A stretch of DNA of 64,000 nucleotides from Nothopassalora personata (taxonomy: Eukaryota > Ascomycota > Dothideomycetes > Mycosphaerellales > Mycosphaerellaceae), in contig CM066294.1 in NCBI GenBank assembly GCA_033816765.1, positions 2,604,001 to 2,668,000 on the forward strand. Reading direction: 5' to 3'. The notes beneath the pieces were generated by a model. It did not search any database. It was not told where the DNA came from and saw nothing but the letters and a program-made list of their open reading frames with translations. Below, piece after piece: positions 6,309-61,300 of this stretch (positions within the stretch are counted from its first letter, which is position 1; every line of letters begins with the position of its first letter). The position numbers and the translations under genes are program-made.

Positions 6309-6320
6309 GGACCGCTCTAT
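6309..6320. repeat. Target site duplication of D1, left copy
   Basis: GGACCGCTCTAT occurs here and again at 7,085-7,096, flanking D1 (one further shared A is possible). Removing D1 and one copy restores the RT reading thread of element B. Confidence 0.85.
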
Positions 6321-6321
6321 A

Positions 6322-7084
6322 ATTGATTGATTATTCCATTAACGTGCTATTTGAGTCAAAGACTATGCAACACGGGTCTCGAGAACGAGACCAAAATTTG
6401 AGAGAAGGAGAAAAGCCCCGTCGTACCCCGGACGTAAAAACTCCTTAAAAGATGCGAGCAACGCTCGCTATTCGAACCGTAAATCGAATATATTGCGGCG
6501 TAGTACGCGCGTACCCGGTAGTCGTGTCTTGTCGAGAATTGCGGTTTGTCGCCTTGCCCCGGGCGAGACAAGTTTTGCGCCCGTGTCTCGTTCTTGTTTT
6601 AAAAAGCCAAGCCGGCCGTACCCGTACGCACCGAGCAAAATCCCAAGAAACACCCGTTGCCTCTGTTTCAAATCCAGTCGCGTTCTCCGGTCTCGAGTGT
6701 AGCTCCTCGGTCGCAGTGGCCTCGCTGTCGTCCCCCCCTCGGCCTCTCTTGGTTCCAGCCGTGCAGTATACGTGGTTTGCGCCCCTAAACGCCTCTCTTG
6801 GTTCCAGCCGGCAGTTTACGTGGTTTGCCGGGACGACAGGTAGACAGCGCCTTCGTTGTTCGAGCGACGTGTACGCTATGTACGTCGCTTTCCCTTCTCG
6901 CAGTTCCGGAGTTCTTGTTTGTAGATTTTGAGCGTATCTCGTTCGTTCGGTTCGTCCGACCTGTCTTTTCTTGTTTCGAGTCGAGTAGGCTTGTATTTTT
7001 CGAGAGAGAGAGTCTTAGTTTCTCTTCGTCGTAACGAAGATACTTACGTCGTCCGCCGCGTGAAGGCGCTCTCTATAGGACGAC
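6322..7084 (-). mobile_element. Element D1: non-coding non-LTR retroposon with 5' ribozyme
   Basis: This 0.76-kb unit is oriented on the minus strand: its 5' end is at 7,084 and its 3' end is a short simple-sequence tail (repeats of AATC) at 6,322-6,335. It is flanked by a 12-13-bp target duplication, which is long and variable as in target-primed (LINE-type) insertion. It has no long reading frame; the short frames on both strands look accidental. It contains a two-copy 49-bp-period repeat (6,742-6,828). It differs from D2 by about one base plus tail length and keeps CpA/TpG, so it arrived after the host element B was RIP-mutated, or has not met RIP. Probably mobilised in trans by a LINE elsewhere; no LINE protein is seen here. 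Confidence 0.8.
7007..7084 (-). ncRNA. HDV-like self-cleaving ribozyme at the 5' end of D1
   Basis: Read on the minus strand from 7,084 (nt 1), the nested double pseudoknot of the HDV fold can be drawn. P1 is GTCGTCC (1-7) with GGACGAC (31-37). P2 is AGAGAG (11-16) with CTCTCT (73-78). P3 is GCC (18-20) with GGC (28-30), closing a 7-nt loop TTCACGC. P4 is TCTTCGT/ACGAAGA (45-51/56-62) with loop TACG. The joining strand is GAAACTAAG (63-71), whose CTAAG holds the presumed catalytic C at nt 67. P1 and P3 positions match those of HDV itself. P1.1 seems reduced to one pair (C23-G38). Cleavage would leave nt 1 as the RNA 5' end, exactly where the element begins. HDV-like ribozymes are known at the 5' ends of several LINEs and their non-autonomous relatives. 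Confidence 0.85.
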
Positions 7085-7096
7085 GGACCGCTCTAT
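7085..7096. repeat. Target site duplication of D1, right copy
   Basis: Second copy of GGACCGCTCTAT. It starts at the base next to nt 1 of the ribozyme. Confidence 0.85.
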
Positions 7097-8345
7097 AGTA
7101 TATCTAAAGACGAGCTACTTGTCCTCCGGAAGTTACTAACGGAACTATAGCGTAAGGGTTATATTCGCCCTTCTACCTTAGAAGCGGTAGCTCTCGTCTT
7201 ATTCGTTAAGAAGCCTAGGGGAGGGCTTAGAGTCTACTACGACTATAGAGTACTAAATTTAATTACTAAGTAGGACCGTTACCCGCTACCTTTAATCCCG
7301 GAAACTATTTAAAACTTAACGGGCGCCCGATAGATTACGAAGGTTAATATTATAGCTGTATTTTATTACCTACGGATAGCGCGAGGCGAAGAGTATATGA
7401 CGGCTTTTCGAACTAGATTTAGTCTATAGGAGTAGCTAGTATACTCGTTTAGTTTATCCGGGGCCCCTATAATATTCTAGCGGTATATTAATAGTTTATT
7501 ACGGGACTACTTAGACGACTTTATCTCGGCCTACGCTAACGACGTCGTTATTTACTCTGACGGAATAAAGGAGGATTATTTCTAGAAGGTTCGAGTTGTC
7601 CTCTAGAAGCTTTAGGACGGAGGCCTATTCCTAGATCTAGGGAAGTATAAGTTTATATAGAAGAAGGTTAAGTACCTTAGGTTTATTATATATACCGACG
7701 GGAAAGGAGTAGGACCCGACCCTAAAAAGGTAGTAGTAGTAAAGGACTAGAAGATACCTATTACCTAGGAGGAGGTACGACGTTTCTTAGGCTTTACGAA
7801 CTACTACCGGATATTTATTCTAAACTATTCGAAGCTCGCCGAGCCCTTAATGTTACTAACTGGTAAGAATACGGTATTTTCCTAGGGAGATCGTTAGACT
7901 AATACGTTTAAGGCCCTAAAGGATAAGTACTATAAGGTACTAGTTTTAGCCTACTAGAACCCGGAGCTCCCTACCTTTTTAGAGACGGACTATAGCGGCT
8001 TTACGCTAGGAGGGGCCCTCCTATAAGAAAAGGACGGAGTTATAAAACTAGTAGGATTCTACTCGAAGAAGCTAAATAAGGCTAAGATTAACTACGACAT
8101 TTACGATAAGGAGATACTTACGGTAGTATTATATCTTAAGGAATAGGCTCCCGAGTTAAAAACATATAGGCCCTTTATAATCTAGACGGACTATAAAAAC
8201 CTAGAATACTTTATAACGAAGAGATAGCTTTCCAAACGGTAGATCCGGTAGGTTAAAGAAGTTATAAAATTCTAGTTTTTACTAGTATATAGGCCTGGTA
8301 CCGAAGCGATTATACCGGACGCCCTTTCTCGAAGGGAATAGGACA
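7085..8345 (+). pseudogene. Reverse transcriptase and RNase H of element B
   Basis: The frame reads ISKDELLVLRKLLTE, then [19 protein letters not shown] (normally R-x-C-V-D-Y-R), [12 protein letters not shown] and KVNIIAVFYYLRIARGEE. The catalytic box is degraded (SAYANDVVIYS near 7,530, normally Y-x-D-D). RNase H follows: LETDYSGFTLGGALL, KLVGFYSKKLNKAKINYDIYDKE, then the end motif YRPGTEAIIPDALSRRE at about 8,300. Stops are TAG in place of Trp (TGG) and Gln (CAG). Family role: copying element RNA and degrading the RNA strand. Inactive here. Confidence 0.85.
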
Positions 8346-17416: not shown

Positions 17417-17430
17417 GGCGGCGTAGGCGA
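17417..17430. repeat. Target site duplication of D2, left copy
   Basis: GGCGGCGTAGGCGA here and at 18,212-18,225 flank D2 (14 bp, perfect). Confidence 0.85.
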
Positions 17431-18211
17431 TTGATTGATTGATTGATTAATTGATTGATTATTCCATTAACGTGCTATTTGAGTCAAAGACTATGCAACA
17501 CGGGTCTCGAGAACGAGACCAAAATTTGAGAGAAGGAGAAAAGCCCCGTCGTACCCCGGACGTAAAAACTCCTTAAAAGATGCGAGCAACGCTCGCTATT
17601 CGAACCGTAAATCGAATATATTGCGGCGTAGTACGCGCGTACCCGGTAGTCGTGTCTTGTCGAGAATTGCGGTTTGTCGCCTTGCCCCGGGCGAGACAAG
17701 TTTTGCGCCCGTGTCTCGTTCTTGTTTTAAAAAGCCAAGCCGGCCGTACCCGTACGCACCGAGCAAAATCCCAAGAAACACCCGTTGCCTCTGTTTCAAT
17801 CCAGTCGCGTTCTCCGGTCTCGAGTGTAGCTCCTCGGTCGCAGTGGCCTCGCTGTCGTCCCCCCCTCGGCCTCTCTTGGTTCCAGCCGTGCAGTATACGT
17901 GGTTTGCGCCCCTAAACGCCTCTCTTGGTTCCAGCCGGCAGTTTACGTGGTTTGCCGGGACGACAGGTAGACAGCGCCTTCGTTGTTCGAGCGACGTGTA
18001 CGCTATGTACGTCGCTTTCCCTTCTCGCAGTTCCGGAGTTCTTGTTTGTAGATTTTGAGCGTATCTCGTTCGTTCGGTTCGTCCGACCTGTCTTTTCTTG
18101 TTTCGAGTCGAGTAGGCTTGTATTTTTCGAGAGAGAGAGTCTTAGTTTCTCTTCGTCGTAACGAAGATACTTACGTCGTCCGCCGCGTGAAGGCGCTCTC
18201 TATAGGACGAC
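17431..18211 (-). mobile_element. Element D2: second, nearly identical copy of the ribozyme-headed retroposon
   Basis: Minus-strand unit of 0.78 kb. Apart from a longer AATC-type tail (17,431-17,465) and one base in the run near 17,799 (TTTCAATCC against TTTCAAATCC in D1), it appears identical to D1. It is flanked by a perfect 14-bp duplication. It has no coding capacity and no RIP, in contrast to element B around it. D1 and D2 are 11 kb apart in the same orientation. Confidence 0.85.
18134..18211 (-). ncRNA. HDV-like self-cleaving ribozyme at the 5' end of D2
   Basis: Same sequence as in D1: P1 GTCGTCC/GGACGAC, P2 AGAGAG/CTCTCT, P3 GCC/GGC around loop TTCACGC, P4 TCTTCGT/ACGAAGA, and the catalytic strand with CTAAG. 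Nucleotide 1 is at 18,211, one base from the target duplication. Confidence 0.85.
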
Positions 18212-18225
18212 GGCGGCGTAGGCGA
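18212..18225. repeat. Target site duplication of D2, right copy
   Basis: GGCGGCGTAGGCGA, directly after ribozyme nt 1. Confidence 0.85.
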
Positions 18226-43355: not shown

Positions 43356-46300
43356 CCCTTCTATTTCCCGACGCTTTTAATAGTTCCTAAAGGGTCTTAT
43401 ACCTATCCGAGCTAACTAGGGCAGTAAACATAATACTTTTACCTTTACGGCTAGTAATAGTCCCCTCCTATAAACTATTATCGTAGTTACGGGTAGTAAG
43501 CCGCACCTTACGGGCCTACGGACGTCCTAGGATTATTAGTAAGTTTAGATCCGAGGAGATAAATATGTCTACCTAGTAGTGAACCCTAAATACCTAAATA
43601 TCTAAATTGCCTATAATACCTTTAAACTAGGCCCGCCCTCTAGCACCTCGGAAGGTAAGCTAAGCACTCGACATTACTAGTAACCTAAACCTATAAGCGT
43701 TCCTCTAGCCGATGATATTTACCTCGGAACCTTTAGTAATTAGGCACCTAATCTAGTTCTTATTTATCCTAAACTCCGCTACTACCTAAGGACTAGGGAC
43801 TATAGTAAAGTTATTAAGGACACTAGAGAGCCCGATTTTCTTAACGTCCTTATATAGCTTAGTAGTAGGGACCGCACCTTTAGAGCAAAGTATAGTTAAA
43901 TACACTCCGACATACTAGGCCTAACTATCTTCGCGGAAGACCTCCTTATTATACTTAGGTTTATCTTTATAGGTAACTACTTATCTAGTACGAACCTTAG
44001 GGTCCTTTCCTATAAGGCGTCGTACTGTAGCGAGCTTCTCCTAAAGAGCGGGGGTGTTAGTAACGCGACCGAAGAGGGTAGCCTCGAACTAGTAACTATA
44101 TCGAAACTAATCCTAGGCATTTACATTAGGAAACGTCGTCTAGAGGATCTAATCAATCTAGTAGATAATACCCTCTTCCTTTATAACCGGGCTATTACTA
44201 GCTAATCTATATTGTCGGACGTAGTTATTAATCCTTATAGTCTTAGCATTCTATATACGCTTCCTTTATACGAAGGGGGCGTTCACGGGACTAATAGGCA
44301 TATCCTTAGGCAGTCCTTTATTAGCATCGTTCCCTAGTTTATTTACTTAGGTATCCTTTCCCCTTCCTAGGGTTACCCCGGATTTAGCTAATAATTAAGT
44401 TTCGCTTATTTAAGCACTAAATTCGTTAATCATTTCAACCTCCTACTAGTTAATCTTAGCTTACCGGATCTCCTATTCTAACTAAAGGCGAACTTTCTTA
44501 GTAGCCTTAGCTCGGGCTCGTAGATCCTAGGCTAAGGACCGGGTCCTCGGGTACGGATTCTTTAGAATGCCTACGGGTGCCTTCCCTTTTACTTTATTAG
44601 ACTATATAGGATAGGTAGATACCTCGTTAAGCTCGCCTAAGTCGATCGCCTACTCCGCTTTACTTTCTCCGAATGAGACCTAATATGTCCTAGTAGCCTT
44701 GTCCGTTTAGCTAGACCGTGCGTCCTAATGTCCTAAGGGCTATACTCTATTAAATGCCTAAAGTTAGGAGGGGGCTTAGAATAGTTAGGAGGCGTAACCT
44801 TTATTACCCTAGTGTAGTCCCTACCTATCTATTACTTACGTAGTACGGGAATTTTATACTAGTTATTAAACTCGATCGGCCTATAATGTTCTTCGAGTAG
44901 AGGGAGTATATAGAGCAGTTTCGGTTTACTATAGTCCCTCCGAAAGTTACACTTAGTAGGACGCGGATCGCCTTCTTTCCCTAGATACTACTAGTTGTTT
45001 GGGGCGAGGTATACGTAGCCCCGGGATATTAAGGACCTTATCGCCCTACAATTGCTAGCCTAGTACTTCGAACTACTATAGTTGTAGTAATAACTATCTA
45101 TCGCTTTAGACTGTTCGCGATACTAGGATAGGGGACGCTATATTGCGTAAACCTATAGTTTAGTATCTAGGTCGTGCCTCTCCGGTTATATAGAGCGTTA
45201 ATTCTCGCTCGGGTAGAAGGCACCCGCGTCCGCGACGCGACCGCGCTAGTATATACGTATGCTTATTTTAGCTACCTTCTAGATTAGGTTATTATTAATA
45301 ACAGTCCTAGAGGTAGCCTTCTTAAGCGTATTAATCTTAGGCTTAAGGCGCGGCATTTGCTTTACGACTAAGCGGTATAGCTAAGTAAAGTAAGAGGGAA
45401 ATCTGTATATATAGCTTTCTATCCCTCCTTACTATCTACGATGCTAGTAGCTTTATCGAGGATCCTCTAAAAGTCCCTAAACTTCTTAGGTTACTTTAGG
45501 TAAAGCCCGTAAGCCTTATAGACCGCTTTCGCGACTACCTCTAGTAATCCCTAAAGGAGGAGGCGACTCCGGGAGCTATTATCTAAATCCTTAGGTTCAA
45601 TTAGGTTACTTAAGGATACAAATAGGCGGATAAATTCCTTTATATCCTATTCTTCGGGCCTCTTACCTTACTGTGCCCTAATAATCTCCTTAAGATATTC
45701 CCGACCCCCTAATATCGAGTAGGCGTTAAACCTTAAGAACTCTAATAAGAACGCCCTCCTAAAACGTGCCTTGTTAGTAAGCTACCTAGGCAATCTTATA
45801 ACTACGCGCCGGATAGTAGTTTTGTAATTGCGCTTAAACCTGCCCTAGAAATCATCCTTCTTAATAGATGCCCGAGGCGGATACTAGTCTATTAGGTTAC
45901 TAAACCGCTCCTAGAACTTAGTAGCAATAGTGCCGTTAAAGAACGGATTCTTAGCACCTCCTAGAGGTGGAAAGCGAGGGCTAGCGTTTTCTATTACTAC
46001 TGCTAATTGTCTAAAGAGGGTAGTTATAGTATCTATTCCAATTGTACTATTCGTTCCTACACCTATACCTAATTTAGCGGCGCTAGTTCCGCTTCTCCCT
46101 TCTTTACTAGATTTAGGTGTTTCCCCTTCCTCCGATTCCTCTATCCCCTTATAAGGGATAGAATCCCTATAGACCCCTTCTATTTTCGTAGGGTTTATAG
46201 GCTGTTTGTAGCCTCTACCTATGTCGGCAAAGGTGCTAAGTTTTTCTAGTGATGTAGCCGTATCTATTATTACGTAGTACTTACTTTAGAATGTGCTAAT

Positions 46301-48542: not shown

Positions 48543-48554
48543 TAATTATACTTA
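48543..48554. repeat. Target site duplication of D3, left copy
   Basis: TAATTATACTTA here against TAATTGTACTTA at 49,416-49,427. The single difference is a G/A transition, of the RIP type (TG to TA). Confidence 0.75.
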
Positions 48555-48943
48555 TAATAATAATAATAATTCTATTAACGTACTATATAAGTCTAAGACT
48601 ATATAACACGGCTCGTAAAACCTAGGTCCGAATACCGAGATAAAACGACCGAAATTCGAGAGGAGAAAAGCCCCGTCGTACCCCGGACATAAAAACTCCT
48701 TAAAAGATACGAGCGAGGCTCGCTATTCGAGGCGTAAGTCGAATATATCACGGCGTAGTACGTCGCGTACCCGGTAGTCGTGTCTTGTTTCGAGAGTTGC
48801 GGTTTATCGCCTTACCCCGGGTATCGGACAAGTTTTATACCCGTGTTTCGAGAGCGACCGACCGACCGGTTGGTCGTGCTTCGAGATTACGACCGAGAGC
48901 TGTTTCTTCGCCTTACCGCGACTCGCGGCCCCGACGCACGCCG

Positions 48944-48948
<5 letters not shown>

Positions 48949-49005
<57 letters not shown>
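48949..49005. repeat. (GA)n microsatellite inside D3
   Basis: About 28 uninterrupted GA units. It explains the Arg/Glu-repeat frames around it, which are not genes. Confidence 0.95.
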
Positions 49006-49008
<3 letters not shown>

Positions 49009-49338
49009 GTATCTCGAATAGCCCGTCCCCTCCGTAGAAAGTCTTCGACCGCCTTCTTCGTACGTAGGTACGAGGATATCCCTTCCTCGTAGGCTCGTAG
49101 CGAGAATGCCCGCCCGCTTTAAACGGTCGTCGTTATTCGAAGAGAGAGTCCGCCGCGTTCCCTCTTCTTTCGAGCGGTTTCGAGGTCTTCGTTAATAGAT
49201 ATCCGGGCGCGTCCTATCTTCTCCTCTCTTCTATTCTCTTCTGCGTATCGTGTTTCTAAGGTCGTCGTCGCGTTTAGGCTTCGAAATCGGCGTCGCTTTT
49301 CGAGAATTATTCGAATTTCGAGCGGGAGTTTTCGAGAG

Positions 49339-49415
49339 GGAGAGTCTTAGTTTCTCTTCGTCGTAACGAAGGTACTTACGTCGTCCGCCGCGTAAAGGCG
49401 CTCTCCGAGGACGAC
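49339..49415 (-). ncRNA. HDV-like ribozyme of D3 (variant)
   Basis: From 49,415 on the minus strand: P1 GTCGTCC/GGACGAC unchanged; P2 GGAGAG/CTCTCC, where the outer pair is G-C instead of A-U (a compensatory change relative to D1/D2); P3 GCC/GGC; loop TTTACGC (C to T relative to D1, RIP type); P4 CTTCGT/ACGAAG; catalytic strand with CTAAG kept. The linker between P1 and P2 is one nucleotide shorter. Activity may be weakened by the loop change, which touches the P1.1 base. Confidence 0.75.
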
Positions 49416-49427
49416 TAATTGTACTTA
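49416..49427. repeat. Target site duplication of D3, right copy
   Basis: TAATTGTACTTA, adjacent to ribozyme nt 1. Unique DNA begins after it. Confidence 0.75.
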
Positions 49428-50596: not shown

Positions 50597-53125
50597 TCAC
50601 CCAATGAAAGTCTTACTAGTCCTCGCTCTAAACCTGCCCCTCAATCTGTGCAAAGCCCCCTCATCTGTAGCAGCACTAATCCCATCCTTCACCAACCTCC
50701 TCCTCTCCGCCCGTCTCCTCTCCACAAGCCCTTGACTAACACCACCAAACCCACCTCGTCTCTTGAAGCAAATTTCCATCAATGCGTTGATATCCAGCAT
50801 ACTCCGCGGAATCGTCTGCACCACCTGAAAGACTTCCATGGAATCCGTGACTTTCAGGATCTGCGGCTCACCGAACTTGAAGATGGCTAGGGCGATCCTA
50901 AAGAGCGTTTTGCTGCCTTCGAAGAAGAGGCAATCCCAGACGCGGAGGACGCTTTCGATGGGGAGCGTGCCGATGAAGAGTGACATGAACCATGCGGTAG
51001 TGGCGAGACTTACAGTGGGTAGTCGTAGTGCGCCGCCGACTGGGTTGAGTGCTGCGCTGATTCCCGTACCGCCTTGGTCGTCGAGCTTTTTCCAGACTGC
51101 TGGCAGCGAGTCTTTGACGCAGGACATGAGTACGGCAATGTCGATGTTCGCACCTTCCAGTGCAAGGCCATGTGTTCCGGGCAGATGCAGTGATGTGACT
51201 ATGTTCAGAAGCACGAAAGCTTTTTCTTCGTCTTCGTCGAGGAAGAGTAGGAGTAGGCCAGCGATGAAGTTCAAGGACTGGCAGTATCCGATCTGCGGAT
51301 TGTGGACCGCAAATGCTTGTAACAGTCTGCGCAACGCCTTGACGATTGGTGTTTCGAGTTCTTGAGTCTGCCGTTTCGTCTTCTCGTCATCGCCGCCTCC
51401 AGCACCCGCCTGTGCATCGTGTAGGGTCGACGGATCCGGCTTGAAGCGTATGTTGTCAGGAAATGTGCGATTGAGATCGCGCTCAATATGTTCGCGGTCA
51501 TTGTCGCTGAGCTCACCTTCCTCCACTTTCACCAGTAGCTCAGCATAAAGTGCAGGTTCTTTCGCCAGCTTTCCAGGACCCCCAGCATACCAAAACCAAG
51601 CAGCACCACGAAACTCCGGTGGGATCCCCTTTCTCACGTAGCGCTTGATCTTGTCACCCTTCGCCGGAAATCTCGACGCTGGTGATGTAGAAAGTCCAAA
51701 CGAGTCCAGTAGCGCGTGCCATTTCTTCGATCGCCTCTCGATGTGCTTGGCGTATAATCTATCCCAGGCATCATATTGCTCCACAGTAATGTGATGCGAC
51801 GCTTTCTTAAAGCCGTACCTGTCGCGAGGCACGGCATCCCGGGCAGTCGCCACAACAGGAGTCGGTGGCGCAACATTCTCATTGCTGGCGATCTGCATGG
51901 ACGTTCTCTGCTTCGATTCATTCTGCGTGGGCGCTTGTAGACTCCGGCGCGGACTGGTGCCTGGTCTCATTGTCTGCGGGACATTCAAGACCAGGACGCT
52001 AGCGCTGTGGCTTCGCCGATGGGCTGCAGCCGGGCGCTTTGTCGTCGGCGTGCTTGGCTGAGACGTCGCTTGCGACAGCTGTGAAGGTGGCAGCACTTGT
52101 GGTTGCGAGACCGGTCTCTCGAGTTGCAGCGATCGGATAGAGCGGACTTCTGGAGTGAGACGTCCCGCCGGGTCCACTGATCGTATTGACCTGATGTCGA
52201 TGCTGTTCTTTGCGCTACCAGGCACACTCGAGAACCCACACTCGTACATGCCCATTATGTCTTCGACATCCGAGTAGTTGTTCCCTTCGTCGTAGTGCCC
52301 ACTCGTTACCTTCACAAACGAGTCGGGTCTCGAGCTCACACTCGTTCGGATAGTGTTGACACTGCTCGATGGCTCCAGGCTGGAATTGCTGGTCACAGCA
52401 CTTCGGGAGGAGTCTGTGACCTCGTCACTCATCGGAATCCTCGGCCTGTCTGTCAAGCTATCCGGCGTCAGTGGGCCATTCGCATCCCGGTGCTTGCTTG
52501 ATAACGGTGACTCTGCGCTTCGCAGGCCGTTGCCGACACTTCTGCTGCCCTTCAATGCCTTGCTCTTCTTGTCCGGCGGAGCACACGGCAGACGTTCCCT
52601 CGATGGCCGGTGTTGGAGCGGAGGCGGAGGCGGAGGCGGTCGAATGGCCTCCCGTTCGTAGTATGTCGTGTCCCTCCAGTGTGCATGCCGCAGCGCCGAC
52701 TGGTTCTCCAGCACGCCCACAGCGTTTGGATGTTGCCTTCTCGATTCTCGCCCGGCAAACGCATGCTCTGAACTTGCTTGCACGCCGAGCACGTGTGGGA
52801 CTGGCGGCTGCACCGGTACTGGGTGGAAGCCCTTCACGCGGTGCGGGCTCGGCTGCTGAGAGGGTATGAACAGCGGCGTGAGGACAGTGCCGGGGCGCCT
52901 TTGCATGCGGCCATGCGTGGATGCCTTCCTCAGCGGGAGGTGCGGTTCGGGCGCAGGTAAATCTCGCGGCGACTCGACGCTCGGTCTGGCGGTGGAGCGC
53001 GAGGCGGAGTGGCTCCTCCCGGCGACGCTCGCGCTATGATGGGTATCCATGGCTTCTCTGACGGCCTCGGCAACGCTCAAGCTGTGCTCGGGACGCCATC
53101 CACGCTGCTGCTCTGCTATATGCAT
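50597..53125 (-). CDS. TBC-domain Rab GTPase-activating protein (Gyp3/Msb3-like)
   Basis: 842 residues from ATG 53,125, without introns. Residues 1 to about 450 are low-complexity, rich in Ser, Pro and Arg, and probably disordered. The TBC domain spans about 499-790. It begins GIPPEFRGAAWFWYAGG, like the Msb3/Gyp3 group. It carries the arginine finger in IERDLNRTFP (R553; motif I-x-x-D-x-x-R) and the glutamine finger in NPQIGYCQSLNF (Q616). Both catalytic residues are present, so it should be active. TBC proteins speed GTP hydrolysis by Rab GTPases and so switch off vesicle-traffic steps; Msb3/Gyp3 relatives act on Sec4 and other Rabs in polarised secretion. The exact Rab cannot be read from sequence. 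Codon use is normal and there is no RIP. A housekeeping gene, probably unrelated to the metabolite genes upstream. Confidence 0.9.
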   Translation of the reverse strand: MHIAEQQRGWRPEHSLSVAEAVREAMDTHHSASVAGRSHSASRSTARPSVESPRDLPAPEPHLPLRKASTHGRMQRRPGTVLTPLFIPSQQPSPHRVKGFHPVPVQPPVPHVLGVQASSEHAFAGRESRRQHPNAVGVLENQSALRHAHWRDTTYYEREAIRPPPPPPPLQHRPSRERLPCAPPDKKSKALKGSRSVGNGLRSAESPLSSKHRDANGPLTPDSLTDRPRIPMSDEVTDSSRSAVTSNSSLEPSSSVNTIRTSVSSRPDSFVKVTSGHYDEGNNYSDVEDIMGMYECGFSSVPGSAKNSIDIRSIRSVDPAGRLTPEVRSIRSLQLERPVSQPQVLPPSQLSQATSQPSTPTTKRPAAAHRRSHSASVLVLNVPQTMRPGTSPRRSLQAPTQNESKQRTSMQIASNENVAPPTPVVATARDAVPRDRYGFKKASHHITVEQYDAWDRLYAKHIERRSKKWHALLDSFGLSTSPASRFPAKGDKIKRYVRKGIPPEFRGAAWFWYAGGPGKLAKEPALYAELLVKVEEGELSDNDREHIERDLNRTFPDNIRFKPDPSTLHDAQAGAGGGDDEKTKRQTQELETPIVKALRRLLQAFAVHNPQIGYCQSLNFIAGLLLLFLDEDEEKAFVLLNIVTSLHLPGTHGLALEGANIDIAVLMSCVKDSLPAVWKKLDDQGGTGISAALNPVGGALRLPTVSLATTAWFMSLFIGTLPIESVLRVWDCLFFEGSKTLFRIALAIFKFGEPQILKVTDSMEVFQVVQTIPRSMLDINALMEICFKRRGGFGGVSQGLVERRRAERRRLVKDGISAATDEGALHRLRGRFRARTSKTFIG

Positions 53126-53895
53126 TTCCTCTTAAGATGCACAGGACCCAGCCGAGCAGCAGCTTCCGGAGAGCTTGGAGCGGCGCGTGGTGGGTGGTGG
53201 GTGGTGGGTGGTGGGTGGTGGGTGGTGGGTGGTGCGTGGTGCGTGATGGAATTGTGTAATAATCTGCAGTATATCGCAGGAGCGTTATTGCCTGTCGTGC
53301 AACGTGAGACAGCCTTGGCGCAGGTCGTGGGTGATTGATGTTCGATGCCCGCGGCTCCTGCTCATTTCATGCTTCAGGATTCCTACTCACCTACTGCAGC
53401 TCGAGTCTCCCGTCGGCTGCCCGTCGTATCCCGTGTTACAGTATTGCGATGATGCTGCCTCATTAGTCATGTCGTCTACTCAATCTGCCGCGACCTGTGT
53501 CCCTCTTCCTTGTCGACTAATCTTATTAGCGATGCAGCCCAGCGAGTATCATCAGCGAGGTTCGTCGTATCAGTCAGTAAATGATTCTACTATATCCTTC
53601 AATGCGATGTGGTCGTCGACTCAACGCAGCTGTCCGCCTGATCATCACCGGCGGCTGCTCCGGCCTTGCAAGTCGAACTACAGAGTGTGGTAGAAGTCCT
53701 GCGCGGGGTAGGTTCCATACCACTCACCTCCTCCACTAAACTTAGCGCAGTGCGGTCAAATATTGATTGACTGAGAACATCTGGACAACAGCTGACTTTA
53801 CTGTACGTGGCTGAATACATTGATTTCTCAAACACCCAATGACTCTCCAGAAACTCTACCTCGAGGAGAATCGTTCTTCTACTCTGCACAACGTG
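53126..53895. other. Intergenic region: promoter of the Rab-GAP and 3' flank of the transporter
   Basis: 770 bp. Contains a GGTGGGT repeat (53,187-53,244) about 60 bp upstream of the Rab-GAP start codon. Short frames here lack any family feature and are not annotated. Confidence 0.6.
53187..53244. repeat. (GGTGGGT)n microsatellite in the Rab-GAP promoter
   Basis: Seven-base units GGTGGGT repeated about six times, then two GGTGCGT variants. G-runs of this spacing could form a quadruplex on the plus strand. Confidence 0.85.
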
Positions 53896-55518
53896 TCAAC
53901 AAACGGCACTCTTGGACCTCAGCCATGGACCAAGCTTCCACAAGCCTGTCGAAAGACACCCCGCAATAGCAGCAGCGAGGGCTAACAGCGACACGCCCCA
54001 ACCCAGTCCCAGCGAGGCGAACATGACATCGGCAAAGAGCGGGAAGCCGAATGCAGCCAAGAAGCGCGCCACGTTCATTCCAGCGAGCGCCGAAGCTGCG
54101 AACCCCGTCTTCGAATAGCAGTCCAGGATATAGTGCTGCACTGCCGCCAGAGGAGCCATAATGCCCATTCCGACCAGAAACAGCCCGATATCAGGGACGA
54201 ACCAGAAGACGTGCTTCTGAGCACTCCATCCGTACAGGAGAAGTCCTGCCGGGAGCACAGTGGCACTAGCGGCGAGAAATGGAATGCGAGCCTCGACGAA
54301 CTCTTCGTCATCGCCACCGTATCTGTCCTTCAATGTTCGGTAGATCCGGTCCATCGGCTTTCCAGTGACCAGCACGCCAACACCGAAGCCAAGAAGTAAT
54401 GCGACGTAGTGAAGAGATGAGACTCCAACCGACTGGTCATACACGGATGTGAATGTGCTGGAAATGGTAGTGAGGAAGAGGTAGAATGTGCCAAATACCA
54501 CCGCGGCATAAAGTGCCAGGACCTGAATGATGGGTTGAGTTGCGAGAAGCGTAATCGGTCGTCGAAGGGAGTACATGCAATTGCGCGTTACTGCGCTCCA
54601 TCCAGGCACTTGTTCGCGATTGAGCTTTGGAGCGTACGTCTCGGGCAGTGCAATCACACCAATGGCTAGGACCACCGAGCTTGCGATGGCACAGACATAA
54701 TTTGTCCAGCGCCAACTGTCAATGGTCTGGGCGATCCATCCCCCCATTATCGGTCCTGTCTGCCAATTCCATGTCACTGGTCTGCACGTATGACAATCAG
54801 TACACAGACTGGGACTTACTGCAGGTCCAGCAAGTTGCAACCCAAAGTACAACGCCATGGCCGAGCCACGCTCGTCTGGGGAGTACATATCGCCGATCGT
54901 CGCTGCCCCAATCGCCAACGGAACACACCCGCCCAAGCCCGAGAACACGCGAAATACAATCAGTTGTGCAGAGTTCTGAGCAAATCCACAGCCAAGAGTG
55001 ACAGCCAGGAATACCGCTGCAGATACCAACATCACCGGTCGACGTCCGACAGATTCGGAGATTGGGGCGAGCAGAAGGGTCCCTGGGGCATAGGGAAGGA
55101 CAAATGCAGACAGCACGAGCTGTTTTGATTCTGCAAATCAGCTTCTCTGCAAAATCCTCTGGCGGACTGCTTGGTGCATTTGACATACATTTCGCTCCAC
55201 GGAAGATGAGAGATGGAAGTCTTCAGCTATCAGGGACAGAGCTGGGGCAATCATTGAGGACGCGAAGGGTTCCAGGAACGCAAAAAGTCCGACGCATATC
55301 GCTACTTGTCGTCGCCTGGAATTGGGCCATTGGCGGGGATCGATGGCCGTTTGTTTCGTCAGCTGCAGAGAGCGGCTGTCTGTTTTTTCATTGGGATTTC
55401 CGTCGGACATGAAGGATGAAAGAAGGTGTTGTCGGTGTTGTACGTGTCGTTGTGGATCCAGCGGGTTTAGGGATACGTCAGACGAAGTACGACCAAAGTG
55501 CTCCGACGTCAATTCCAT
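53896..55518 (-). CDS. MFS transporter, DHA1 (drug:H+ antiporter) family
   Basis: Three exons: 55,518-55,189, 55,119-54,820 and 54,759-53,896, giving 497 residues. Intron 1 (55,188-55,120, 69 bp) has donor GTATGT and acceptor CAG; its removal joins SSVERN to LVLSAFVLPYA. Intron 2 (54,819-54,760, 60 bp) has donor GTAAGT and acceptor CAG, with CTGAT as likely branch site. It is a multiple of three without a stop, so it can be misread as coding; removal restores motif C, LAGPATGPIMGG, typical of antiporters. The first membrane segment is near residues 72-92, and the loop motif SESVGRRPV corresponds to MFS motif A. Twelve segments are expected. The N-terminal 70 residues are a polar cytoplasmic tail. 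Substrate unknown. It lies on the same strand as, and downstream of, the amidotransferase gene, next to an NRPS-like gene, which suggests export of their product. Confidence 0.88.
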
Positions 55519-55882
55519 CTGATCGACGGCGCGGCCGAAAAATAGGCTTCGGCCACGCCAAATATCAACCGCTTAAGCTGCTCAAAGCCGAGAGAAATCC
55601 TCTGGAAGCACCTAAGTTTGAAGCCGTTAAGTTTGAAGCCGTTAAGTTTGAAGCCGTTAAGTTTGAAGCCGTTAAGTTTGAAGCCGTTAAGAAGCCGGTG
55701 TGGTGGGAGGTCGAATGAGCGATGGTGGGGAGACTCGAAATCACTGCTACCTGCATGCAAGCAAAGTCTCCCTGCGAGTACATGTACGGCACACGGAATG
55801 CAGAACCACTTGCAAGACTCACTGCATTGCGCAAGTGGTACAGCGATGCCTCGTTCTGTCCAAGCGAGAGGAAAAATTCTCA
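55519..55882. promoter_or_regulatory. Promoter region of the transporter with a minisatellite
   Basis: 364 bp between the amidotransferase stop and the transporter start. Its main feature is a five-fold 15-bp repeat 95-175 bp upstream of the transporter ATG. No TATA or factor site could be assigned with confidence. Confidence 0.5.
55613..55691. repeat. 15-bp minisatellite (TAAGTTTGAAGCCGT)n
   Basis: Five perfect units of TAAGTTTGAAGCCGT followed by a partial one. It produces repeated short peptides in all six frames, none of which is a gene. Perfect identity means recent expansion and likely length polymorphism. Confidence 0.95.
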
Positions 55883-57928
55883 TCACTGTTCACCCGGCAT
55901 CCAAGGCCGTACACCAAACTGCTGCCCTATCGACACAATCTGCGCAAGCCAGAGAACATTCCTAAAACAGAACTCGTCCTTCTCCTCGAAAGACTTCCGC
56001 AGCATATCCAAAGCCTTTTCACAATCTACGAATCCCATCGGTCTGAGAGACTCCCGATTGATCAACGAAGCCATCTTGCGATGCATAGGCCCATCAACCT
56101 GCCATCTAAAGGGTGCCGCAAAGGTCTTCTTCCGTCGTTTGTACACTTCATCCGTTACGAACGGTTGCACAGCTTCTCGAAAAAGCCACTTCTCGGTGGC
56201 ATCGCGATTGCCATCGAGGTGCACGAGCATGTCGACTGGTAATGAATTGGCGAACTCTGCGACTACGTGGTCCAGTAAGGGCGGTCTCGATTCCACTCCG
56301 TGTGCCATCTCTGCTCCGTCGGAGATGGCTGAGATGACCACGTTCGGTAGAACGGTCTTGTTCCATGCCAGCATTGCTCGACGCATGGGGTGGTAAGCTT
56401 TCATTTCTTGGACTTCGTCCTGGGTGAAACAGTCGTATATCCCTTTGAAGGGGTTACTTAGGGTACGGACTTCTTCGGTTAGCCAGTCTTGATACCATGC
56501 GACTGCGAGCTTGGAAAAGAAAGGTGGCAGATTGAGCGTTGAAATGTATTCAGCGCTGCTCCCTGTTGGGGCTTCTTTCTTGCCGAACCATGACGTTGAT
56601 TCTGAAATCTGCTCTTTCAATGCCTTGCGATCTTGTGAGGTAGCAGAGCAAAGGCGATCATCGCGAAGGCTGTCATCCTGAATAAGTCGATCGAGGACGA
56701 AGAATGGGTAGCCTCCGAACGATTCGTCACCTCCATCACCGTTCAGTACCACCTTCAGGCCTGCGTTATTCGAGATATGTCGACTAAGAGCCTTCTTGGC
56801 AATGTGCTGCAAGTCCCACATCAGGTTCTCATTGAGCCAACAAGATTCATCGAATTCGTTGACCAAAAGGTCTTCAGTGACAACAATCTTCTCGATGGGC
56901 AGATCTAGATGATCCGCCGTTCTTTTGGCGATCGAAGATTCGTCCAGATCATCGTCGTCCGGGAATGCTATTGTGAAGCAGGTTGGGACTGGCGGCGCTT
57001 TACCGGCGGTGGACTCAAGTCTCTTCCGTGCCAAATGTGCAGCCATCCCAGCAACAGCACTACTGTCCACACCGCCACTGAGCAGAATCCCAACCTGCAC
57101 GTCCGTCAATTCCAAACGAAGTCGCACAGCCTCCAGTAGCAGTCTCCGGGTTTCGAGTGTCAACTCTTCAGCAGATCGCGAGTCTTTGACACCACCTTCG
57201 GCACGATACTTCAGCCTCCAATAAGGCTCGAATGCGATTGGATCCGTCTGCGCGTATCGGACGATGGCCATGTGTCCTACAGGGACCTTGGAGATGCCCT
57301 TGAATAGTGTTCGGCTGTCATAATGTCCGCCGCCCTGCGCAAGACACGTCAAATCCCATTCCAGGGGCCTCTCGTGTTGCATCAGCTTTGCGATTCCTTT
57401 GCATTGTGTCGCAATTAGGAGCTTGTTGTCGAGAATCGCGAAATGCAACGGTTTCACGCCAAACCGATCCCGTGCGATGATCATGGTCTGATTCCGGCCA
57501 TCGTAAATTACCAGAGAAAATTCGCCTCGCAAACGATGTATGAAGTCTTTTCCGTAGCGCTTGTACAGAGGAATGACCATTTCGGAATCAGAAGTAGACT
57601 TGAAAGGATACCCATGGCCGAGGTCATCACGGAGGCTGGTGTCGTAGTAGAGCTCGCCGTTGACGATGCAATGGATGTCGTCGTCCATTGGGCTATGGAG
57701 CGGTTGATGGCCGGCTTCACTCAAGTCCCTGGTCGACAAGCGAACATGTGCAAGACCAACCGAAGCGTCTGAAGAGATCCATGTGCCTTCAGAATCAGGG
57801 CCGCGATGTTGCTGGCATTTGATGGACTCGTCGAGTTTGGCGGCCAAGGCAGCCCTTTGCTGCACAACGCCGCCGTTTTGGTATTGCTTCGCTTCTCGGT
57901 ATTCGAAGTACGCAGTGATGCCGCACAT
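55883..57928 (-). CDS. Class-II glutamine amidotransferase / asparagine synthetase (AsnB-like)
   Basis: 681 residues, intronless. I start it at ATG 57,928 because the second residue must be the catalytic Cys (MCGITAYF), exposed after Met removal. The open frame extends 58 codons upstream but those have no family match. Glutaminase domain about 1-235: Cys2, R63 in HVRLST, NGELY at 90-94, and STSDSE with D114. The synthetase domain starts near 255, with the ATP-pyrophosphatase loop SGGVDSS at 284-290, then NGDGGDESFGGYPF and GVESRPPLLD further on. All key motifs are present. Reaction: glutamine-derived ammonia plus an acyl-adenylate gives an amide; with aspartate this is asparagine. It is longer than primary AsnB proteins (about 550-590) and sits head to head with an NRPS-like gene, so an amide-forming role in a specialised pathway is as likely as asparagine supply. 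Confidence 0.9.
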   Translation of the reverse strand: MCGITAYFEYREAKQYQNGGVVQQRAALAAKLDESIKCQQHRGPDSEGTWISSDASVGLAHVRLSTRDLSEAGHQPLHSPMDDDIHCIVNGELYYDTSLRDDLGHGYPFKSTSDSEMVIPLYKRYGKDFIHRLRGEFSLVIYDGRNQTMIIARDRFGVKPLHFAILDNKLLIATQCKGIAKLMQHERPLEWDLTCLAQGGGHYDSRTLFKGISKVPVGHMAIVRYAQTDPIAFEPYWRLKYRAEGGVKDSRSAEELTLETRRLLLEAVRLRLELTDVQVGILLSGGVDSSAVAGMAAHLARKRLESTAGKAPPVPTCFTIAFPDDDDLDESSIAKRTADHLDLPIEKIVVTEDLLVNEFDESCWLNENLMWDLQHIAKKALSRHISNNAGLKVVLNGDGGDESFGGYPFFVLDRLIQDDSLRDDRLCSATSQDRKALKEQISESTSWFGKKEAPTGSSAEYISTLNLPPFFSKLAVAWYQDWLTEEVRTLSNPFKGIYDCFTQDEVQEMKAYHPMRRAMLAWNKTVLPNVVISAISDGAEMAHGVESRPPLLDHVVAEFANSLPVDMLVHLDGNRDATEKWLFREAVQPFVTDEVYKRRKKTFAAPFRWQVDGPMHRKMASLINRESLRPMGFVDCEKALDMLRKSFEEKDEFCFRNVLWLAQIVSIGQQFGVRPWMPGEQ

Positions 57929-58334
57929 CTCGACTTGGTAATTAAGGAAGGTTATTGAGGCTGGTCTGAATTGGTTGATGGATGTTGTTGAAATCACACA
58001 TTCTTGATCAATATGCGCCGCCTTTGCTGCTTGGCGACTGGAAGAGCGGTTCGATTCGGGCCAAACAAGCTGTAGTCTGAACCTTCCTCTGCACATCATC
58101 ATGCCATGATCACGATCCTCAGGACTCCCTTCATTTTGCCGTTTTAGGAAGTTCCAGTTGCAGTGAGGTCATATCTCCACACCGGCAGCACAAGGTACGG
58201 TAAAAGCATATCGTTCGATCGCAAGACTGGCCGTTCTTTCCACAATGCCTTATTATTAGTCTGGGAATGATACGTTAACAAAAGTCTACACATGTGACAC
58301 AGTCAGAGCAAGAATCACCAACTACTGACGCACA
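57929..58334. promoter_or_regulatory. Shared divergent promoter of the amidotransferase and NRPS-like genes
   Basis: 406 bp separate the two start codons, which point away from each other; this suggests co-regulation. No known regulator site was identified. Confidence 0.55.
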
Positions 58335-61300
58335 ATGCCATCTGCTCGAAACTTATACGACGCGGTCTTTGACAAAGATGCGGTCAGCGACTTGCCGGCA
58401 GTCGTCAATCCTGATGAGACAATCACATATGATCAGCTACAGGCTCTTATTGATGCGGTCAGATCGAAAGCAGAGGTCGAAGCTGGACAGACGATAGCAA
58501 TCGTCATGCCTAACAGCATCGAATTCATTGTGTCTTTCCTGGCCATCTGCGCTGATGGAGGTGCTGTTGCTCCCCTCAATCCAGCGTATACTGCAGCTGA
58601 GTTTAAGGTACGTACGTTCATTGATATCCCGCACGAGTACACCAAGCTACATTCACTGAACACATCAAGACCGCTCTGGATGACCTGGGCATAACGAAAG
58701 TATGGGTTTCAAGCGATGACCTAGAGCAGAAGCTGAAGGAAGCCAATTCCACTCTTCATATCAATACAATCACTTGTGATCTGGAGCAACGGGAAAAGGC
58801 CCTTCGGAAGCCAACAAATCAAGACAACGGCGTTGCCCTCTATCTTTCCACCTCGGGAACAACTGGCAAACCAAAGGCGGTGCCATTAAAGCATTCAAAC
58901 CTGCTACGTGGAGCTCGGAACGTAGCAGAAACCTACAATCTGGATGTCAAGGATCGGACTTATCTTGTACAAGTTCTATTCCACATTCATGGCATCGTAG
59001 CGGCAATGCTAGCACCCTTGATGACTTCAGGCAGTCTTGCGATTCCGAGAGGCGGAAGCCTCGACGCCTCGCAGGCATGGTCTGACTTCAGCAAACATGG
59101 CTGCACATGGGTGACGGGAACGCCATCAATTCTGCAGACGCTTCTGGCAGCTCCGGCTCCAGAGAACTTGAAGATTCGGTTCATTCGGTCATGCTCAAGT
59201 CCGCTACTCCCAGCCGTGTTTAATGCACTCTGCAAGAGATTTGCGACTGTCGTTGTCGAAGCCTACGCCATGACAGAAGCATCGCATCAGATGTGCAGCA
59301 ACAGATTGGATCGATACTCGTCTGGAACGGTGGGTCCGGAATCTGGAGGCACGAAAATATGTATTTGGGACAGCGGAGATCGTGGGTGTCAGTTAGGAGC
59401 AGAAGGAGAAGTGTGTGTCTCTGGAGACAACGTAGGGACGGCTACATGGGTGTCAGCAACGAGACGAACGAAAAGTCCTTCTGGCATGGATCCGATGAGA
59501 GGGGAAATGTTGCACGATGGTTCCGCACTGGCGATCGTGGCATCCTATCCACCGATGGCGAACGCCGGCTGATACTCACTGGGAGATTTTCCGAAATAAT
59601 TAATCGCGGTGGAGAGAAGATCTCTCCCGTAGAGGTCGATGAGGCAATCATGGTGGCAAGTGACGAAATCAGAGAAGCTGCATGCTTCGCGATTGAAGAC
59701 GAATTCTATGGACAGGAGGTTGAAGCAGCTGTCGTGATCAAAGACGGCTCATCACTGACGCAGGAAACCGTACAACAACTTCTGCAAAAGAAACTTGCAC
59801 GATTTAAGATCCCGAAGAGAATACACTTCTGCGATGGAAAGATTCCAAAAGGTGTGCCAGGCCTAGCAAGAACTTTGGCATTGTGTACTAACGTGAGCAG
59901 GTCCAACTGGCAAGATACAGAGGAAGAATTTGGCCCACATCTTCCGGGATGCAGGAAAGTCCCCGAATGGTACTCAGGAATCATCAACGGACAAGGACTT
60001 GTACGACGTAATCGATCGCGCTGTCGGCCTGGCCCCTGGGACTGCGGCAGCCAATACAGACAAAACACTACTACAGCTCGGTGCAGACTCGATGGCTTTG
60101 TCCAAGATCGCTAGTGAAGTCAAGAAGGCCACTGGAGCTAATCTGGATACTGCCCAACTCTTCTCGTTCCCTCGAGTCTCTAACGTTGTTGACTTGGCAA
60201 TGGAGGGGAAATCTGGCATCGATCACGTTGAAGATACCATACCACGCCCCGAACCCTTTTCGTTGCTGCAGTTCGACGAAGACGAACGTATGCGAGTGGC
60301 CCAGGAAGCAGAGGTATCGTCCGACGATATTGAAGACATGTTTCCTTTGTCTGCTTGCCAATCCTCCTTTCGTAGTGCATTCCTCGGCGAGTCGCCTAAC
60401 ACTGATCGAGTTTGGATGTGGACGCGCTACAGAATACGACAAGACGTGGATCCAGATCGACTTCATCGTGCTTTGAAATCACTTCAAGAGCACGAAGAAT
60501 CCCTTCGCTGGGTGCTGGCGCGCTCTGAGAAGACTACAAATCCATGGGTCACAATTCAACTTCGTCCTGGCGTCGAGGACCGTGTGAAAGTTCTCGATTT
60601 TGACTCTAAGCAGCAAGCTGATAAACATATCCAAGAAATGCTTTCCACATGTCGTCACTACCCTGGTCTCCGGACGGCACAGTTGTACATTATCACGATC
60701 GGAAAGGAAGTGCAGTTGGCCTTTAATCAATCCCACATCTTCACAGAGGGTCAGGCACAGAGTCTCATCCTCGAGAATCTGAACAAGGCGTTCGCTGGAG
60801 AGCCAATGGAACCCTATACTCCCTACTCTTCCTTTGTGAAGAGAGCAGCAGCGGACGATCAATCGCGGCTGGACTTCTGGGCAGCAGAGGGAGCTGCCCA
60901 GCTTCAATCTGATGGACCACACCACAGTCTAAAGAGTCTCACATTGCTCACTCCGCCAGCCTTCATCGAAGACGACCTCCAGCCTCTGGGAGTCCAGAAC
61001 ACAGTGCATGCACCTTTGAGCAAGCTCAGCGTTCGACTTAAGATGACCTTCCCACTGATGGTTGAAGCAGTTCTCCCGCTCACACTCGCATTGTACTTCG
61101 GCCAGCAGGATCCAACCTTCAGCGTCGGACACACAGTCTACGATCGGGGAGTTTCAGTCAGGACAGAAGATCACACGTTGAGCAACGTCCGAGCTATGAC
61201 CGGTGCTTATCATCCAAACTACATATCGCTTGACATTGCGCGACGCAGTCTGTGGTAAGTCGAAGCTCCTCAAACGGCAGAAGAAGCACTGTACGTAACT

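Follow-up and report, generated by a model that had tools for sequence, protein, structure and literature searches.

A dispersed fungal retroposon whose 5′ end is very probably an HDV-class self-cleaving ribozyme

The element described here is very probably a SINE-like retroposon mobilised by a LINE, and its 5′ end a self-cleaving ribozyme of the HDV class, more precisely of the loop-E variant type of fungi. It is non-coding, is flanked by target-site duplications (TSDs) and has its 3′ end in common with a LINE, which are all three of the marks of a LINE-mobilised SINE-like retroposon. Family e1 is about 765 bp long, the putative ribozyme being its first 78 nt, and a 159-aa ORF antisense to the element has no Pfam match. 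With up to 3 mismatches allowed, the genome (54.5 Mb in 40 contigs) has 280 matches to the 5′ 50-mer of e1 and 291 to an internal 50-mer; exact matches to the ribozyme head in viral contigs number 0. That the ribozyme defines the exact start of the element, as the first-pass annotation had proposed, is supported by TSDs that abut G1 in families e1, e2 and e3, by two-sided changes in P1, P2 and P4, and by the raggedness of LINE 5′ ends. The window, meaning the whole stretch of 64,000 nucleotides that was analysed, contains two e1 copies and an older relative, with features as follows.

7007..7084, minus strand: HDV-like ribozyme, from sequence, descriptor and alignment (numbering: nt n = 7085-n)
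7007..7084, minus strand, helices: P1 1-7/31-37, P2 11-16/73-78, P3 18-20/28-30, P4 45-51/56-62
7007..7084, minus strand, joints and loops: J2/3 C17; L3 21-27, UUCACGC (7 nt)
7007..7084, minus strand, presumed loop E: AGUA 41-44 with GAA 63-65
7018..7018, minus strand: putative catalytic C67 in J4/2, first base of CUAAGA (C in 43/45 aligned copies)
6322..7084, minus strand: element copy A, family e1, full length, non-coding, with TSD TATAGAGCGGTCC on both sides, the 5′ one abutting nt 1
7085..7097, minus strand: 5′ TSD of copy A, 13 bp, immediately before G1
6309..6321, minus strand: 3′ TSD of copy A, 13 bp, immediately after the (AATC)n tail
6322..6377, minus strand: LINE-like 3′ tail of copy A, 56 bp, 94.6% to L077:6834-6889, with (AATC)n at its end
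6343..6392, minus strand: two adjacent 3′ hairpins of copy A, GGUCUCG/CGAGACC, then CGUGUUG.../...UAGCACG (folding z -3.96)
17431..18211, minus strand: element copy B, e1, with ribozyme 18134-18211, 5′ TSD 18212-18225 and 3′ TSD 17417-17430
48555..49415, minus strand: older related copy, family e2, with TSD 49416-49427 and 48543-48554, one C/T difference between them

The second ribozyme that had been pointed to, at 18,134-18,211, is as claimed, its 78 nt being identical to 7007-7084. The e2 copy has P2 as GGAGAG/CUCUCC in place of AGAGAG/CUCUCU, and is depleted in CpA/TpG. Elsewhere in the window, positions 50597-61258 hold ordinary genes (RabGAP-TBC, an MFS transporter, and asparagine synthase with glutamine amidotransferase), with an NRPS-type condensation/PCP fragment at 59930-61258.

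Read from the sequence, helices P1, P2, P3 and P4, the 7-nt L3 and the strand with C67 all lie at the positions first given for them. The nested double pseudoknot P1-P4 of the HDV class is present, and its pairing is kept through sequence changes. AGUA and GAA together are presumably a loop E, and four bases of loop E and joint separate P4 from C67. P1.1, also as read from the sequence, is weak (C23-G38 plus U22/U39). A descriptor of the double pseudoknot, the kind of search that had been recommended, picks exactly three places in the window, which start on the minus strand at 7084, 18211 and 49415 and are all of the same family. This is a version loosened only after a stricter one had missed the element, and its background is 16 matches in 168 dinucleotide-shuffled windows, or about 0.1 per window. 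The strict version, with 0 matches in the window and 4 in 294 shuffles, missed the element because it disallowed the longer joint from P4 to the catalytic C; the loosened version misses the diverged copy L013b, though that copy was among the loci scanned. The stronger argument for the ribozyme is that TSDs set the 5′ end of the element at ribozyme nt 1, and this is independent of the descriptor.

Recourse to the HDV-like models of Rfam, also recommended at the outset, was less favourable, none of the HDV-type models attaining gathering score for the ribozyme; over the whole window, two tRNAs and nothing else do so. The gathering cut-off is a detection limit and no defining feature of the HDV class. 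Below it, the HDV-F-prausnitzii model aligns in register from the same G1 (E 0.09, 19.9 of 44 bits), and the CPEB3_ribozyme model aligns full-length and in register with the related copy L106 (E 0.044, 19.4 of 35 bits). The mammalian CPEB3 ribozyme is intronic, and is not known as a retroposon head or to contain a loop E. The consensus L3 of its family (RF00622), UUCACGU, is identical in L106.

Among 31 distinct e1 copies, 26 have an exact TSD of 10-15 bp, with its 5′ copy directly before G1 and its 3′ copy after the (AATC)n tail. The script first used could detect abutting TSDs only, and the count was repeated with displacement allowed, by the same rule as for the LINE: 26 of the 31 are at 0 nt and one is at 1 nt, with four lacking a convincing TSD (one has none at all, and three have short distant matches). 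The copies were collected with a query that included nt 1-78, and the sample is on that account biased to intact 5′ ends, a bias that leaves the presence of extra bases before G1 unaffected. In the older families e2 and e3, 6 of the 8 copies with both ends have a recognisable, partly mutated TSD that ends within one base of G1, and in the other 2 a recognisable TSD is absent. Depletion like that left by RIP is marked in the flanks, where CpA and TpG are at 0.16 of expectation, and is less in e1 (0.54/0.70, in the one copy measured). The presence of some 280 near-alike e1 copies with little RIP marking, in a genome that has RIP-like marks, implies either that the burst is recent or that RIP is inactive.

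The families are modular in construction. Between e3 (L013b, L097-L103, L106 and others) and e1/e2, only the head, with matches inside nt 1-86, and 33-100 bp of 3′ tail are in common at E <= 1e-3, the bodies having no match at that level. The P1 of e3, GCCGUCU/GGACGGU, is different in sequence and still pairs, and the same holds for its P4, which in L106 is different in length also. Further subfamilies (L116, L105, L107, L108) have other P4 or downstream sequence beneath a similar ribozyme core.

Covariation was assessed in an alignment of 44 matches, 43 of them distinct, fitted to the structure model. In it 90.7% of cells are paired, and 63 cells have both sides changed; shuffles average 30.2 such cells, and slid controls reach 12 at most. 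Illustrations are pair 2 of P1 (UA 28, CG 13), two pairs of P4 (UA 30, AU 13; CG 21, UA 12) and a pair of P2 (GC 25, AU 5). On the other side of the ledger, two of five measures (pairs in which both sides change, and pair types) are below shuffle means, the two-sided changes lie mostly between e1/e2 and e3 and so represent few independent events, and in a smaller alignment of 12 sequences covariation did not exceed that of shuffles. Taken together, covariation gives good, not overwhelming, support for the predicted fold.

Single positions that would matter for activity are conserved to differing extents. The catalytic position in J4/2 is C in 43/45 copies, J2/3 is C in 43 and T in 2 of 45, and the two strands of loop E are AGTA in 40/45 and GAA in 41/45. 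Base pair 1-37 is G1-C37 in 25 of 43, G-U in 11, A-U in 4 and unpaired in 3. The third base of L3 (C23) is C in only 4/45, U in 40/45 and A in 1/45, L3 in the four rows with C being UUCACGC or UUCACGU. A change of C to U at this position is the CpA to TpA change that RIP makes, which suggests that the older copies have probably lost P1.1 and that most are probably dead.

A search of the genome for the LINE endonuclease domain (PF14529) gave 18 places. One LINE copy, L077, has a first ORF of 412 aa and a second of 1076 aa that encodes EN and RT domains, and the 3′ end of this copy has 56 bp in common with e1 at 94.6%, plus the (AATC)n tail. The layout of its 3′ hairpins is as in the element, with a different first stem (GGUAGG/CCUACC in the LINE, GGUCUCG/CGAGACC in the element) and the second hairpin in common; folding z is -2.82 for the LINE and -3.96 for the element, and the e2 3′ stretch that was tried gave no significant fold of this kind (z -0.47). 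By descriptor or ribozyme model, no ribozyme head was found in the LINE loci searched (0 at E <= 5 in 13 LINE-type loci).

The 5′ ends of the LINE were sampled in 11 copies, of which 6 have their 3′ end in the stretch retrieved and 5 of these have a scorable TSD. The distances from TSD to a marker, GGCGGAC, are 14, 19, 45, 50 and 98 nt, of which about 13 nt are common LINE sequence; all five being different, the five scorable copies have five different starts. By the same rule, 27/31 e1 copies begin within one base of G1. For 27/31 uniform starts against 0/5, the hypergeometric chance, worked by hand, is about 3e-4; a comparison of 26/26 with 0/5 gives 5.9e-6, but omits every e1 copy that lacks an exact TSD abutting G1. 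Uniform starts in e1 and ragged ones in the LINE tie the uniform start to the ribozyme-bearing element rather than to the machinery of the LINE in itself. Element, with ribozyme, and LINE, with none found, are alike in tail and in TSD length, and uniform 5′ ends in the element only make the pair a natural control.

Two places, C6:757474 and C16:9862, resembled 7.1-kb elements with head and tail, as for an autonomous ribozyme-bearing LINE. The C6 copy, the one of the two read at full length, proved to be short and old, with an opposite-strand retroelement inside it, and so is no autonomous LINE. The insert has 75% protein identity to open frames of RVT_1 loci, from a search in which 30 of 150 scored places were examined, and these loci were called Ty3/Gypsy by eye from their domain order.

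The probable cycle would begin with transcription of the element by read-through from any host promoter. The ribozyme would then cut the transcript just before G1, the site at which inserted copies begin, leaving an RNA whose 5′ end is exact. The 3′ tail of this RNA, which is common to the two-ORF LINE of the genome, would be recognised by the EN-RT protein of the LINE, and target-primed reverse transcription by that protein would presumably leave the 10-15-bp TSDs that are seen. No promoter of its own would be needed, because the head would travel with the element and cut itself out in each round. More broadly, it is about an even chance that fungal HDV-variant ribozymes generally are interchangeable 5′ heads for a superfamily of LINE parasites that lack promoters. 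If they are, a self-cleaving head does the job of the Pol III promoter of ordinary SINEs, the body of an element is freely replaceable with selection acting on head and tail alone, and the 'gene associations' scattered among the published fungal ribozymes are mere insertion sites.

Other explanations of a conserved head can be set against a ribozyme that trims the transcript. It might be an internal promoter with its start exactly at G1, the fold being secondary, and the 77-nt Pr77 head of trypanosomatids, which serves as promoter and as HDV-like ribozyme at once (PMC4035085), is a pertinent precedent. Also in its favour, e1 and e3 have nothing but head and tail in common. However, a DNA promoter does not predict that P1 and P4 should differ in sequence between families with pairing kept, nor do the CUAAG strand, L3, loop E and the J2/3 C, all at ribozyme positions, fit with it, and the start follows G1 of P1 in e1, e2 and e3 alike. 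Covariation thus argues against promoter activity as the sole function of the head, an explanation that is improbable, though by analogy with Pr77 both functions could reside in one head. With the ribozyme as relic, active in a donor element and now a passenger, the changed L3 of most old aligned copies, and the changed P1 of some, would be explained; the young e1 copies (280 matches to the 5′ 50-mer), which have an intact core and still begin at G1, make this very improbable.

A classical SINE, with a Pol III transcript, a head derived from a small RNA and mobilisation by a LINE, would also be non-coding, below 1 kb, LINE-like in its tail and flanked by TSDs. It is disfavoured, and very unlikely, for several reasons: the box B consensus used is unmatched in the element (a one-mismatch box B, GTTCGAATA, is visible by eye), the single box-A-like match, at nt 207, is isolated, six internal runs of at least 4 T would stop Pol III, and at Rfam gathering score there is no tRNA, 5S or 7SL part. 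Scarcely probable at all is a retrozyme, an element bearing a ribozyme and spreading via circular RNA from tandem copies. Plant and animal retrozymes are likewise small and non-coding with a self-cleaving motif (PMC7761336), but the copies here are single units between TSDs with a tail at the 3′ end, and no tandem copies occur among the loci examined, where the window alone has two exact same-strand e1 cores, and these are 11 kb apart.

For the ribozyme that the preferred reading places at the start of the element, the closest published material is the set of fungal HDV variants, comprising 230 representatives from 26 fungal species, with two cleaving in vitro (Li & Breaker 2017, PMC5640933). 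Their marks are an E loop that replaces part of P4, one added nucleotide, usually C, between P2 and P3, and a C-G pair at the cleavage site (PMC5640933). The first two are also in this ribozyme, whereas the correspondence of the third with G1-C37 is uncertain. With both the loop E and the additional C between P2 and P3 that those variants have, the ribozyme itself is not of a new kind. The suggestion of a family new to fungi has accordingly to be narrowed, the ribozyme class being known there (Li & Breaker 2017, PMC5640933) and its place as head of a LINE-mobilised retroposon being what is new. The gene associations reported for the variants are widely variable (PMC5640933); in the present case the ribozyme sits precisely at the start of a retroposon. 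The strings 'transpos' and 'retrotranspos' do not occur at all in the main text of that paper, and a link of the variants to retroposons was not seen in the main texts of the literature searched.

The resemblance to trypanosome relatives that was first drawn holds for a ribozyme-headed non-autonomous element and fails for its partner. The NARTc, RIME and SIDER elements of trypanosomatids are non-autonomous with an HDV-like ribozyme of about 77 nt at the 5′ end, as here, but their partner LINE carries the same head (PMC4035085), whereas here none was found in the LINE loci searched. The R2/R1 hybrid SIDEs of Drosophila, as here, combine an HDV-like ribozyme head with a 3′ end taken from another LINE; they have the 14-bp TSDs of the tail donor, which is believed to mobilise them (PMC3414825). 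They sit in rDNA with a head from the R2 of the same genome (PMC3414825), in contrast to the dispersed copies here, about 280 in e1. Also unlike them, the present elements have two unrelated bodies, and no head-donor LINE was found (13 LINE-type loci, E <= 5). A point that counts against the ribozyme reading is that R2 elements cleaving exactly at their own 5′ end have variable reported junctions (PMC3774820), whereas those of e1 are uniform. What is new is spread to many dispersed copies in a fungus, the exchange of bodies, and a LINE partner in which no ribozyme was found. The range of ribozyme-headed non-autonomous retroposons, so far insect rDNA and trypanosomatids, would thereby grow to include dispersed high-copy fungal elements, and a fungal self-cleaving ribozyme class whose role was open would acquire a likely job.

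The sequence on the far side of 5′ junctions has features of its own. At -1 of G1, the 31 e1 copies have A in 13, T in 11, C in 6 and G in 1, and the scarcity of G could reflect either choice of insertion site or a -1 preference of the ribozyme itself. Several e2-type copies (L112, L113, L118-L122, L126, and also L014 and L015) have 5′ flanks that are identical or almost so (...gtaagtagtcgggctacc), from which it appears that the element probably spread to many places inside another repeat. Among LINE 5′ junctions, that of L081 has no match among the loci examined. The extra DNA at that of L077 (L077:1508-1544) includes a 27-29-nt piece found also in L006, in L026 and at 43613-43641 of the window, and that of L079 (L079:305-397) has two adjacent pieces of about 23-29 nt from other repeats; patching of this sort in L077 and L079 suggests template jumps or filler DNA.
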